Shown here in pieces: positions 5,584 through 58,894 of a DNA stretch of 64,000 nucleotides. The stretch is from Myxococcales bacterium 68-20 (GTDB taxonomy: Bacteria; Myxococcota_A; Polyangia; Polyangiales; Polyangiaceae). How positions within the stretch are numbered: the first letter of the stretch is position 1; the number at the start of each line of letters is the position of its first letter. The translations under genes were made by a program, and so were the position numbers. The notes beneath the pieces are model-generated. The model was given only the letters and a program-made list of their open reading frames with translations, was not told where the DNA came from and made no database searches. The stretch spans positions 258,986-322,985 of the forward strand of contig MKVQ01000030.1 of assembly GCA_001899635.1 (NCBI GenBank). The letters run 5' to 3'.

Positions 5584-5667
5584 GCACGGGTGGCGGAATG
5601 GCAGACGCAGTGGGTTTAGGTTCCACCGTCGTAAGGCGTGCGGGTTCAAGTCCCGCCCCGTGCACCA
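5584..5667 (+). tRNA. tRNA-Leu (anticodon UAG, reads CUA) with encoded CCA
   Basis: A cloverleaf is visible. The 7-bp acceptor stem is GCACGGG (5584-5590) with CCCGTGC (5657-5663). The anticodon arm is GTGGG-TTTAGGT-TCCAC, giving anticodon UAG. A variable arm follows, then a T-arm GCGGG-TTCAAGT-CCCGC (5640-5656). The discriminator A is at 5664 and a genomically encoded CCA ends at 5667. The length and long variable arm fit a class II leucine tRNA. Confidence 0.95.
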
Positions 5668-6996: not shown

Positions 6997-7156
6997 CTAG
7001 AGCACCGATCAGTCTGCGGACCGAGTATTTCCGCCGAGTTCCGAGCAGCGCGAGGAGCGACGACGACGGATACTGAAGTATCCGGAGGAGGAGCGACGAA
7101 GCGATGCGACGGAAATCGGCGGAAAGACGACGGGAGCAGACTGATTGGTGCTCTAG
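6997..7156. mobile_element. TA-flanked palindromic element (MITE-like), copy 1
   Basis: 160 bases beginning and ending CTAG. The TA pairs at 6998-6999 and 7154-7155 bracket a 154-bp core whose ends are inverted repeats (GAGCACCGATCAG... / ...CTGATTGGTGCTC). The interior is a long quasi-palindrome with a central hairpin CGGATACT-GA-AGTATCCG at 7067-7084. It codes for no transposase. TA flanks and terminal inverted repeats fit a non-autonomous Tc1/mariner-IS630-type element. It is 154/160 identical to the copy at 57366-57525. It ends 11 bases before the start of the LysR-Rnk gene, so it lies in that gene's promoter/leader. Confidence 0.85.
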
Positions 7157-7167
7157 TTCCAAGAACG

Positions 7168-8505
7168 ATGCGTGCGAGCCCGGACGACATCCTCGGAATG
7201 GCCTTCTTCGCCCGAGTGGTAGAGGCGCGGTCGTTCAGCGACGCCGCGCGGTCGCTCGGGCTGTCGAAATCTGCCGTGAGCGCCCGCGTCTCGCGGCTGG
7301 AGCAGCGGCTCGGGGTGCGCCTGCTCCACCGGACGACGCGCAAGCTCGCGCTCACCGCGGACGGGGTGCGGCTGTACGAACGGTGCGCTCGCGTCGCGGC
7401 CGAGGCCGACCAGGCGGCGGAAATCGCTGCCGGGGCGAGCGCCGTGCCGCGCGGGGTCCTGCGCCTCCACGCAGCGCCTGCGTTCGCCCAGCAGTACCTC
7501 ACGAAGCCGATCGACGAGTTCATGCACGCCTACCCCGACGTGCGCATCGAGCTGCGCCTCGGCGACCGCATTCCGGACATCGGCGCGGACGGCGTCGACG
7601 TCTCCGTCGTGGTCGCTCAACGGCTCAGCGACTCGGGGCTGCTGGCGAGGAAGCTCGGTTCGAGCCGCGTCGCGACGTGCGCCGCGCCCGCCTACCTCCG
7701 TCGCAAGGGGATCCCGTTCCGGCCCCAGGATCTCGTCCATCATCAGTGCCTTTCGCACTCGGTCGTCCACTTCGAGGACTGGCACTTCGACACGGAGGAG
7801 GGCGCGGTCGCCATCACGGCAGGCGCGCGGATGGTCGCCGACGACCTCCGGTACCTGCGTCAGGCAACGCTCGACGGCCTCGGAATCGCGATGTTCCCCG
7901 AGATCCTCGTGGCCGAGGACCTCGCCGCGGGACGACTGCACCGCGTGCTCGATGCCTTCCAGTCGATGGAGCTCACGGTCCATGCGCTTCACCCGCACGC
8001 GCGGCACGCGCCGGCGAGCGTCCGAGCGTTCCTGGATCACCTCGCAACCTGCTTCCGGAAGCCACCGTGGGAGGAAACGCTGAGCCGCGGCGAGCCGATG
8101 CCGCGGCCGACGGGCCGTACGAAGCACCCGATTCCGATGACCGAGCAGGACGTACGTCGTCTCGGCGCCGTGGCAGCGCTCTACGCGGACGTGGACGCAG
8201 AAGGCACGGCGAGGTTGAGGCAGGCCATCTCGCAGGCGAAGGTCACGCTCGCGTCGAAGATCCCGCGCGGGACGGTGACGATGAACTCGCGCGTGATCTG
8301 TCGCAACGAGGCCGGTCAGGAACAGGAGCTCACGCTCGTGTATCCGTGGGACGCGCGCGACAATCGCATCTCCGTTGTGAGCGCACGCGGCCGTGCGCTC
8401 ATCGGAGCTACGATCGGAACGACGCTCACGAACGAGCGTGGCAAGCCCCTCAAGATCGCGAGCATCCCGTATCAGCCCGAGGCTGCCGGGGATCATCACC
8501 TGTGA
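7168..8505 (+). CDS. LysR-type regulator fused to a C-terminal Rnk/GreA-C-like domain
   Basis: 445 aa; a usual LysR protein is about 300. Residues 8-67 are the winged HTH ('ARSFSDAARSLGLSKSAVS...RLEQRLGVRLLHRTTRKLALT'), and about 95-295 are the LysR substrate-binding domain ('GVLRLHAAPAF', 'DGLGIAMFPEILV'). A short linker leads to residues 324-445, which match the neighbouring rnk-like protein along their length (TEQD[VI]RRL, VTMNS.VICR, IPYQPEAAGD). The second domain starts exactly at an in-frame ATG (8137), so separate translation is possible. Start: ATG at 7168, or ATG at 7198, which fits classical LysR N-termini better. The family regulates transcription by effector binding; Rnk-like domains contact RNA polymerase. 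The fusion is unusual. The gene begins right after the palindromic element. Confidence 0.88.
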   Translation: MRASPDDILGMAFFARVVEARSFSDAARSLGLSKSAVSARVSRLEQRLGVRLLHRTTRKLALTADGVRLYERCARVAAEADQAAEIAAGASAVPRGVLRLHAAPAFAQQYLTKPIDEFMHAYPDVRIELRLGDRIPDIGADGVDVSVVVAQRLSDSGLLARKLGSSRVATCAAPAYLRRKGIPFRPQDLVHHQCLSHSVVHFEDWHFDTEEGAVAITAGARMVADDLRYLRQATLDGLGIAMFPEILVAEDLAAGRLHRVLDAFQSMELTVHALHPHARHAPASVRAFLDHLATCFRKPPWEETLSRGEPMPRPTGRTKHPIPMTEQDVRRLGAVAALYADVDAEGTARLRQAISQAKVTLASKIPRGTVTMNSRVICRNEAGQEQELTLVYPWDARDNRISVVSARGRALIGATIGTTLTNERGKPLKIASIPYQPEAAGDHHL

Positions 8506-57335: not shown

Positions 57336-57983
57336 ATGACATCCCGGAGAACGACCTTTCTCTCCCTAGAGCACCGATCAGCTTGCGGACCGAGTATTTC
57401 CACCGAGTTCCGAGCAGCGCGAGGAGCGACGACGACGGATACTGAAGTATCCGGAGGAGGAGCGACGAAGCGATGCGACGGAAATCGGTGGAAAGACGAC
57501 GGGAGCAAGCTGATTGGTGCTCTAGCTCTTCTCGTCGTGGGCGCGTGCGCCGTGAAGGAGGACGCCGAGCCCGCCGAGATCGCCCTGGACGTGCAGTTCC
57601 CGTCGACGGCGGCGGCCGTCGCCGTCGACGGCGTGAAGGTCTACGTCTACGACGGCACGCTGGCCTGCAACGAGCTCGTTCGCCTTCGCCAGACGGCACA
57701 GCAGCTCCCGCCGAACAGGTTCGAGTCGCGCTCGATCACTCCGTGTGATCTCCAGGCGGGCGGGCCGAACGCCAGCGTCGAGCTCGACCTCGACAAGGAG
57801 TACACGATGCTCGCCGTCGGTCAGGCGAGCGGTCGGGATCTCCTGGTCGGGTGCTCGTCGCAGTCCGCATTCGGCAAGACGAAGGCGCAACCGATCGCGC
57901 TCACGTACATCGACGCGACCCAAAGGATCCCCGAGACCACGTGCACCAAGCTCTCGGACAAGTGCGGAGGACGTTGCCAATGA
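57336..57983 (+). CDS. lipoprotein gene interrupted in its signal peptide by the 160-bp element
   Basis: 215 codons from the ATG at 57336. The start codes MTSRRTTFLSL, then 52 codons of palindromic element, then ALLVVGAC and the mature protein ('VKEDAEPAEIALDVQFPSTAAAVAVDGVKVYVYDG...'). Taking out 156 bp (57369-57524) rejoins MTSRRTTFLSLALLVVGAC in frame, a canonical lipoprotein signal with Cys19. As it stands the signal is split and the protein probably is not exported, unless translation begins inside the element near its right end (…KLIGALALLVVGAC has no ATG/GTG). The mature part is beta-rich with several Cys; no family named. The stop overlaps the next gene (ATGA). Confidence 0.8.
   Translation: MTSRRTTFLSLEHRSACGPSISTEFRAARGATTTDTEVSGGGATKRCDGNRWKDDGSKLIGALALLVVGACAVKEDAEPAEIALDVQFPSTAAAVAVDGVKVYVYDGTLACNELVRLRQTAQQLPPNRFESRSITPCDLQAGGPNASVELDLDKEYTMLAVGQASGRDLLVGCSSQSAFGKTKAQPIALTYIDATQRIPETTCTKLSDKCGGRCQ
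57366..57525. mobile_element. TA-flanked palindromic element (MITE-like), copy 2
   Basis: 160 bases with CTAG at both ends; TA pairs at 57367-57368 and 57523-57524 bracket the 154-bp core. It differs from copy 1 at six positions only: 57382, 57383, 57402, 57489, 57508 and 57509. These pair as 57382/57509, 57383/57508 and 57402/57489, each mirror-symmetric about the element's centre, and each remains Watson-Crick paired in both copies. The element is open in the host gene's frame. Confidence 0.9.
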
Positions 57984-58894
57984 AGTGCTCGGAGCTCGAC
58001 GCGCGCCGCGGGCGCACCTCTGCGGGTGGCTGGGGCGCGAGCCCCAAACGTTGGCTCGCTGCTGGGGCCCTACTCGCCGCGCTCGCCGTTCCTGGCTTCG
58101 CTCAGGCCGCCGGAGTCGAGAACGAGCTGGCGACTGCGGAGAATGCCTACGCGGCCCTCGACTACGCGAACGCGCTGACCGCCGCCGAGGCGGTCCTCGC
58201 GCAGCAGAACCTCAGCCATGACGTGCTCACGCGCGCGACGCGTGTATCGGCGCTATCGCATGCCGCGCTCGGTCATGCCGACCAAGCGAAGCAGCAGTTC
58301 ATCCTGCTCCTCGAGTACGACTCCGAGTTCAAGGTGGACCCGAAGCTCGGGCCGCGCTTCACCGAGCCGTTCGCCGAGGCCCGAGGCTATTGGCAGGCGC
58401 AGGGCCGCAAGAGCGGGATGGACCTACAGGTCGTCGTGCAGTGGGGACAGGCTGGCGAGATCCGCATCGTCACCCGCGACCCGCTCGGCATCGTGAAGAG
58501 GGTCAGCGCCGGCCATCGATGGGCGCCGGCGCAGACCTATACGACGATCGAGGTAGCGCCGTCGGGGAAGGCGATCTCGATCCCCGCGAACCCCGAGGGC
58601 TCGACACGCCTGGAGTACTGGGTGCGCGCGCTCGACGCGAAGAACAACGCGGTGTTCGAGCAAGGCACGCCCGAGACCCCGCAGATCAACCTCGTGACCG
58701 AGCCCGTGCGCGGAGAGGCTCCGCAGGAGAAGAAGTCCGTCTTCTCTAGCCCGCTCTTCTACATCATCGGCGGCAGCATCCTCGCGGGCGCTGCGGTCGG
58801 GGGCTTCTTCGCCTTGCGGCCCACGGAGTACCAGCCCCCGCCAACGGGGCGCGGCGTGTTCGGCGCCACCTGCGGATCGGCTCGCTGCGACTGA
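57980..58894 (+). CDS. secreted TPR-type protein with C-terminal membrane helix
   Basis: 304 aa, ATG overlapping the previous stop. The N-terminus is abnormally long before the signal helix: about 30 polar residues including 'GGWGASPK', encoded by a short interspersed repeat, precede 'RWLAAGALLAALAVPGFAQA'. TPR-like helices span about 42-110 ('ATAENAYAALDYANALTAAEAVLAQQNLSHDVLTRATRVSALSHAAL'). A beta domain follows (about 140-240), then a transmembrane helix (about 258-282, 'LFYIIGGSILAGAAVGGFFAL'). Likely periplasmic partner of the kinase upstream, as inferred from order and coupling. Confidence 0.82.
   Translation: MKCSELDARRGRTSAGGWGASPKRWLAAGALLAALAVPGFAQAAGVENELATAENAYAALDYANALTAAEAVLAQQNLSHDVLTRATRVSALSHAALGHADQAKQQFILLLEYDSEFKVDPKLGPRFTEPFAEARGYWQAQGRKSGMDLQVVVQWGQAGEIRIVTRDPLGIVKRVSAGHRWAPAQTYTTIEVAPSGKAISIPANPEGSTRLEYWVRALDAKNNAVFEQGTPETPQINLVTEPVRGEAPQEKKSVFSSPLFYIIGGSILAGAAVGGFFALRPTEYQPPPTGRGVFGATCGSARCD
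58017..58050. repeat. interspersed short repeat, copy B inside a coding start
   Basis: CCTCTGCGGG-TGGC-TGGGGCGCGAGCCCCAAAC; the second block contains the hairpin GGGGC-GCGA-GCCCC. It encodes the extra residues ahead of the signal helix of the TPR protein. Copy A is at 51550-51603. Confidence 0.5.

Follow-up and report, generated by a model that had tools for sequence, protein, structure and literature searches.

What keeps two distant copies of one short element symmetric, so that a base changed in one arm of a hairpin is answered by a change in the other? The DNA analysed here (the window) is a stretch of 64,000 nucleotides from Myxococcales bacterium 68-20, a member of the Polyangiaceae. 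An earlier note on it had described two copies of a 160-bp palindromic element whose six differences fall into three mirror pairs, and had offered two alternatives, a selected hairpin structure or a templated repair process that enforces symmetry. The two copies and their parts are as follows.

6997..7156, + strand: copy 1, with CTAG at both ends; counterpart site in G009 without the element
6997..7017, + strand: copy 1 left arm, outer stem and terminal inverted repeat (element positions 1-21)
7018..7135, + strand: copy 1 conserved structured core (element positions 22-139)
7059..7066, + strand: copy 1 tandem G.A module, 5' side (element positions 63-70)
7085..7092, + strand: copy 1 tandem G.A module, 3' side (element positions 89-96)
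7136..7156, + strand: copy 1 right arm, outer stem and terminal inverted repeat (element positions 140-160)
57366..57525, + strand: copy 2, with CTAG at both ends; counterpart site in G003 without the element
57387..57504, + strand: copy 2 conserved structured core (element positions 22-139)

The copies are identical at 154 of 160 bases, as claimed, and the six differences (in copy 1 at 7013, 7014, 7033, 7120, 7139 and 7140) form three compensated mirror pairs, all of them base pairs within a 59-pair rod-like hairpin predicted in common for both copies, with predicted minimum free energies of -103.4 and -101.6 kcal/mol. Six differences placed at random on 160 sites would occupy three of the 59 pairs with a probability of 1.5e-6, in agreement with the earlier statement that chance would not pair all six. 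The word palindromic is used loosely, the whole being a rod with internal loops in which 78 of the 160 positions have no mirror partner. A third close copy, L002, shows six differences from copy 1 too: two compensated pairs account for four of them, and the other two are one-sided. As part of the explanation that we favor below, the symmetric differences between the window copies are likely to be compensatory changes under a constraint on the fold.

The element belongs to a dispersed family. Its own genome (G000, 11.9 Mb) contains at least 18 matches at E <= 0.001, with 40 of 139 candidates scored, and five matches, copy 1 included, show at least 91% identity over at least 158 bases. Of the 108 genomes in the GTDB family, at least 28, the own genome included, are matched by a covariance model (R1) built from a 20-copy seed, under strict filters that lose weak matches; there are at least 27 matches in each of G010 and G035, at least 20 in G065 and at least 19 in G124, no more than 27 candidates having been scored per genome. 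In G035, the pattern of the element ends gave 200 hits with up to one mismatch, as against 37 with a reversed-pattern control. The MAGs in which pattern and model both place the element have record titles naming Polyangiaceae, Myxococcales, delta proteobacterium and Labilithrix, and its assignment to the Polyangiaceae follows these titles. A strict-pattern scan of genome contigs gave no hit and a second scan gave 53 stretches, of which two, in a Christensenella bin, are without an R1 match at 1e-9. The element was absent from the plasmids, the phages and the viral contigs searched. Rfam gave no match on the element, either in the window at the gathering threshold or in twelve loci at a relaxed E-value; a single sub-threshold match, in L215, lies outside it. 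A search of the open-access literature found no paper describing this family.

For the analyses of structure, 100 selected loci were submitted to alignment (A5), of which 99 matched (97 distinct) and one, L036, was below threshold. Fragments, weak matches, nested or cut copies, the identical L034 and a few full copies (e.g. L112) were left out, as were the loci from named records (L116-L168), many of which duplicate loci already included. Seven aligned copies lie outside the seven genome groups and were omitted from the counts of symmetric changes, of strand preference and of the unpaired control; in the analysis of transitions and transversions they were omitted from the change counts only.

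Element length ranges from 145 to 194 bp. Several G035 copies of about 185-194 bp (L061, L062, L064-L068, L078 and L090) have extra sequence within the core, which in several of them is predicted to form a stem-loop. In six G008/G010 loci (L019, L020, L033, L039, L040 and L044), the core is embedded in a longer repeat that ends in most of them, judged by eye, in GAAAGCGGTC or similar; the outer region in these genomes is different and without CTAG, and the L039 core appears by eye to lie directly upstream of a rimM-like gene. There are also collapsed derivatives, L089:2219-2244 in G035 (about 26 bp) and L017:1501-1553 in the own genome (53 bp), bare hairpins with little beyond the two element ends.

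The insertion target of the element is CTAG or CTNAG, and because relatives carry corresponding sites without the element, we read both window copies, on these comparisons, as insertions at a CTAG-like site. For copy 2, G003 has 46 bases between matching blocks where the window has 201, and the window minus 156 bases aligns with it without gaps at CTAG/CTCG, one single-base gap lying further upstream. For copy 1, G009 has 133 bases between blocks where the window has 290, with matches on both sides; G004 and G005 match only from the start of the following gene onward, and no element precedes the gene there either. In G124, 9 of the 11 copies read have TNA on either side. Together with a length of 160 bp, 21-bp inverted-repeat arms, dispersed copies and the lack of a transposase gene, these are the features of a MITE; the element is MITE-like and very probably moved in trans. 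The earlier note overlooked both this mobility and the variation of the ends by transposon type. Two genes are closely associated with the window copies.

7168..8505, + strand: LysR-type regulator gene, its ATG 11 bases after the end of copy 1
57336..57983, + strand: 215-codon ORF, lipoprotein-like by eye, reading in frame through copy 2

The C-terminal part of the LysR-type regulator matches the GreA/GreB C-terminal domain (PF01272, 1.8e-9), an odd combination. Other features of these neighborhoods include a tRNA gene (Rfam RF00005) at 5584-5664, about 1.3 kb before copy 1, and a stretch of about 50 bases at 57995-58050 that recurs in the own genome in 19 other matches (86-95% identity) and looks like a separate dispersed repeat. 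A bias in the orientation of flanking genes, suggested on the right side by a crude strand caller (11 sense, 43 antisense), was dropped when a better gene caller gave 19 sense and 29 antisense on that side (p = 0.19).

Copy 2 adds 52 in-frame codons near the N-terminus of its ORF, and in several other copies a stop-free frame, judged by eye, crosses most of the core. It could accordingly be proposed that a peptide encoded by the core is the reason for its conservation. We consider this very improbable and have set it aside: the frame in G037 is not maintained between the two core halves (by eye), not all net lengths are divisible by three, and the changes follow pairing.

If the element is moved in trans, its short inverted-repeat ends would be what the supplied transposases recognize. 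Several end types occur, in which G(A/G)GC comes after an initial TA or TNA. The MITE copies of G124 typically begin with TNA followed by GAGCGCCGAACAAAACC, and their right ends are mostly GAGCGCCTCTCAAAACC, with GAGCGCC(G/T)AACAAAACC in some copies. The same genome contains an insertion sequence with TNA followed by GAGCGCCTAACAA at both ends at six loci, with a spacing of 889 bp at five of them and of 1042 bp at the sixth; its transposase is in two reading frames, both matching the IS5 family model NF033580, with PF13340 in the first and PF01609 in the second. The ends of this IS and those of the G124 MITE are similar, not identical, and we therefore only infer that the IS5-family transposase mobilizes the MITE. 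In G037, element ends such as AGTACCTCGCCATGGGGGAGATGACC are close to those of an IS630-type element of G035 (L113; CTAGTACCTCGACACAGGGGAGATGACC); the sole IS630 locus found in G037 is without ends like those of the G037 elements. Further end types are found in G057, G065, G082, G083 and G095. For the type carried by the window copies, GAGCACCGA, no insertion sequence with such ends was found in the own genome or in G035 in a search that comprised Pfam DDE_3 and DDE_Tnp_1, one protein query and part of the end-pattern hits (about 100 of the 200 G035 hits listed, with 20 stretches around those read). At L197, L199, L221 and L224 (G065 and G124), the MITE adjoins IS ends or IS-end-like sequence at a common target site, judged partly by eye.

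Comparison of individual copies shows that the ends and the core vary separately. The cores of L001 and L004, both from the own genome, are alike at 117 of 118 bases and their ends at only 21 of 28, whereas the ends of L004 and L209, which come from different genera, match at 26 of 28 bases and their cores at 90 of 117; L196 and L213 have identical ends (28 of 28) and cores that agree at 88 of 118 bases. Either recombination between elements or parallel adaptation to one transposase would give this pattern, and the end sequences recognized by transposases appear to be exchanged.

Symmetric ends are expected in any inverted-repeat transposon, another point that the earlier note missed. The covariation of the core was evaluated on its own. 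Across 99 copies and 38 core pairs, 89.4% of cells are paired as against 74.6% after shuffling, and there are 467 double-change cells as against 161, a number reached in 0 of 500 shuffles; slid controls gave 57-111. The core-only covariation score is 0.357 (0.112 shuffled), and 0.404 with the ends added. That the ends covary more than the core is consistent with a plain MITE, in which arm symmetry comes only from the need of a transposase to bind at either end and folding of the nucleic acid plays no part, as are the sites without the element in relatives and the resemblance of the ends to those of the G124 IS and, in G037, to those of the G035 IS630-type element. We nevertheless judge the plain MITE decidedly unlikely, as internal stems away from the ends covary well above controls and the core mismatches described below are conserved across end types.

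Because the 99-copy alignment had been fitted to a model of the tested structure, the test was repeated with sequence-only alignments within genome groups and consensus folds without G.U pairs. Nearest-neighbor edges then contained 80 symmetric pairs (changes on both sides, pair kept or lost), compared with a null mean of 25.8 and maximum of 42. The null maximum was exceeded in G000, G035, G008/10, G065 and G030/108/109; no excess was seen in G124 (2 pairs) or G088 (0).

In paired columns, the nearest-neighbor edges of 92 copies from the seven genome groups show 550 differences. Of these, 350 are one-sided; the other 200 are symmetric and make up 100 pairs where random placement would give about 26; in 64 of the 100 a standard pair is present in both copies, and in 36 it is not. 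The clean result for the window pair, six of six, is a favorable case within the family. The earlier note had proposed to weigh paired against unpaired substitutions in further copies, and the outcome is divided: one-sided changes are the commoner, and symmetric ones are three to four times the chance number.

Double changes that yield Watson-Crick pairs (n = 55) comprise 25 of transition and 30 of transversion type, while 25 further double changes give no Watson-Crick pair; the one-sided changes comprise 98 of transition and 81 of transversion type. A transversion-type double change does not pass through a single G.U step. With 30 of 55 double changes of this type, the visible double changes do not mainly follow a path through G.U, and template switching may contribute. 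Quasi-palindrome correction or template switching, by which one arm is copied onto the other so that symmetry arises without selection on the fold, would also be compatible with the collapsed mini-hairpins L089 and L017 and with the perfect pairing of part of the G124 inner stem (in the L215 structure), and such events have been described for RNA genes, as far as the account in PMC8794818 extends. However, the process should erase internal mismatches, and in the window pair uncorrected loops lie between the changed pairs at element positions 17-18 and the one at 37.

Internal mismatches are conserved in the core. G.A or A.G is present at 28/133 in 98 of 99 copies and at each of 66/93, 67/92, 69/90 and 57/102 in 95; the counts are 87 for 70/89, 84 for 23/139, 81 for 31/130, 79 for 42/119 and 74 for 63/96, and 64/95 (72) and 24/138 (49) are less constant. 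The conserved mismatches include a run of tandem G.A steps with single C-G pairs between the steps. In G008/G010, the tandem step 63-64/95-96 is mostly Watson-Crick instead, and in a divergent relative (L206 and L207) part of the G.A module seems, by eye, to be Watson-Crick. Five G.A positions kept in 95-98 of 99 copies are difficult to reconcile with one arm being copied onto the other.

Template switching should also be blind to strand, and the aligned copies are split 53 and 46 between the contig orientations. Yet among one-sided changes on the reported strand, interchanges of a Watson-Crick pair with G.U exceed interchanges with A.C by 111:48, while the complement gives 43:114. The ratio is 66:32 when each group and pair is counted once, and the excess is found in the inner stem (63:31) as well as the outer (48:17), which is further evidence against a plain MITE. 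Because a mutation bias could mimic an excess of G.U, unpaired columns served as a control. Rates per 1000 at paired sites are 11.0 for C>T, 4.7 for G>A, 18.8 for A>G and 7.7 for T>C, and at unpaired sites 11.0, 14.9, 10.7 and 19.2, respectively; the unpaired control leans the opposite way (Fisher p = 0.0035, with edges and events not fully independent). Given the mismatches and the strand preference, we regard template switching as improbable for the symmetry as a whole. The templated correction proposed in the earlier note is accordingly not supported as the main cause, since it would remove the G.A mismatches and make no difference between the strands, and survives as a possible source of double changes; its other alternative, a selected hairpin, gains support. 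Because the core stems covary, the G.A mismatches are kept and G.U exceeds A.C at paired sites only, we conclude that the fold of one strand is selected, probably as RNA.

The strand test has the same expected outcome for RNA and for one strand of DNA. The folded form could therefore be single-stranded DNA at replication forks, as in IS200/IS605 or REPIN-type elements, and REPIN hairpins likewise show compensatory changes, according to what is described in PMC3116915. The inverted-repeat ends, the TNA on both sides of G124 copies and the similar-ended IS5-family element point instead to a DDE transposase, and we view the single-stranded DNA form as unlikely.

We therefore consider it likely that the two window copies belong to a MITE-like family of the Polyangiaceae, moved in trans, with a rod-hairpin core that has conserved G.A mismatches and whose fold on the reported strand is selected, probably as RNA. 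Transposases supplied in trans would insert the element at CTAG or CTNAG; the fold is under selection in the copies that propagate, its form being presumably an RNA transcript rather than single-stranded DNA. Candidate roles for the folded RNA are the binding of a protein, protection of the element and making its insertions tolerable, and the symmetric changes may arise with some help from template switching between arms. A variant that we hold possible, though rather doubtful, is that the G.A-rich rod is itself a mobile structured RNA that spreads by taking on different IS ends and needs its own fold for propagation. The borrowed ends would be IS5-type and perhaps IS630-type, and possible routes of action for the RNA are the transposase, host RNA processing or an RNA intermediate.

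Compensated changes in repeated hairpins admit two readings, selection on RNA or an artefact of replication. A family with many copies, varied decay, several end types and kept mismatches allows the two readings to be compared by counting, and the strand-asymmetry test with its unpaired-site control makes that comparison here. If the core RNA is functional, a structured RNA on exchangeable transposon ends would be a model for the spread of regulatory RNA. In the open-access literature searched, we found no MITE with such a strand-specific constraint and no conserved core between exchangeable transposon ends.

Parts of this picture are already known, namely compensatory changes in mobile hairpins (PMC3116915) and TA-target MITEs with long stem-loops (PMC2229807). 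RUP of the pneumococcus and Correia/NEMIS of Neisseria are described in the latter as TA-target bacterial MITEs of 100-200 bp with long stem-loop transcripts, and an IS630-type transposase acting in trans is held responsible for moving RUP. The present element resembles both in its size, inverted-repeat ends, terminal TA and long stem-loop; in the available description, they differ from it in that its core structure is conserved across many genomes, its constraint is strand-specific and it has several end types. Unlike RUP as described there, its only similar-ended IS in the same genome is of the IS5 family. Copy 2, a palindromic hairpin in frame inside an ORF, is reminiscent of the Rickettsia palindromic elements covered by the same account (PMC2229807), although it is a single in-frame case and the likeness is one of description, not of sequence. 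REPINs, as portrayed in PMC3116915, are likewise dispersed hairpins in which compensatory changes are common; they are associated with RAYT tyrosine transposases, whereas the ends and target duplication of the present element are of the DDE type. Finally, the symmetric arm changes are similar to those of the RNA hairpins maintained by template switching, as described in PMC8794818, but the conserved mismatches and the strand asymmetry found here point to a selected fold.
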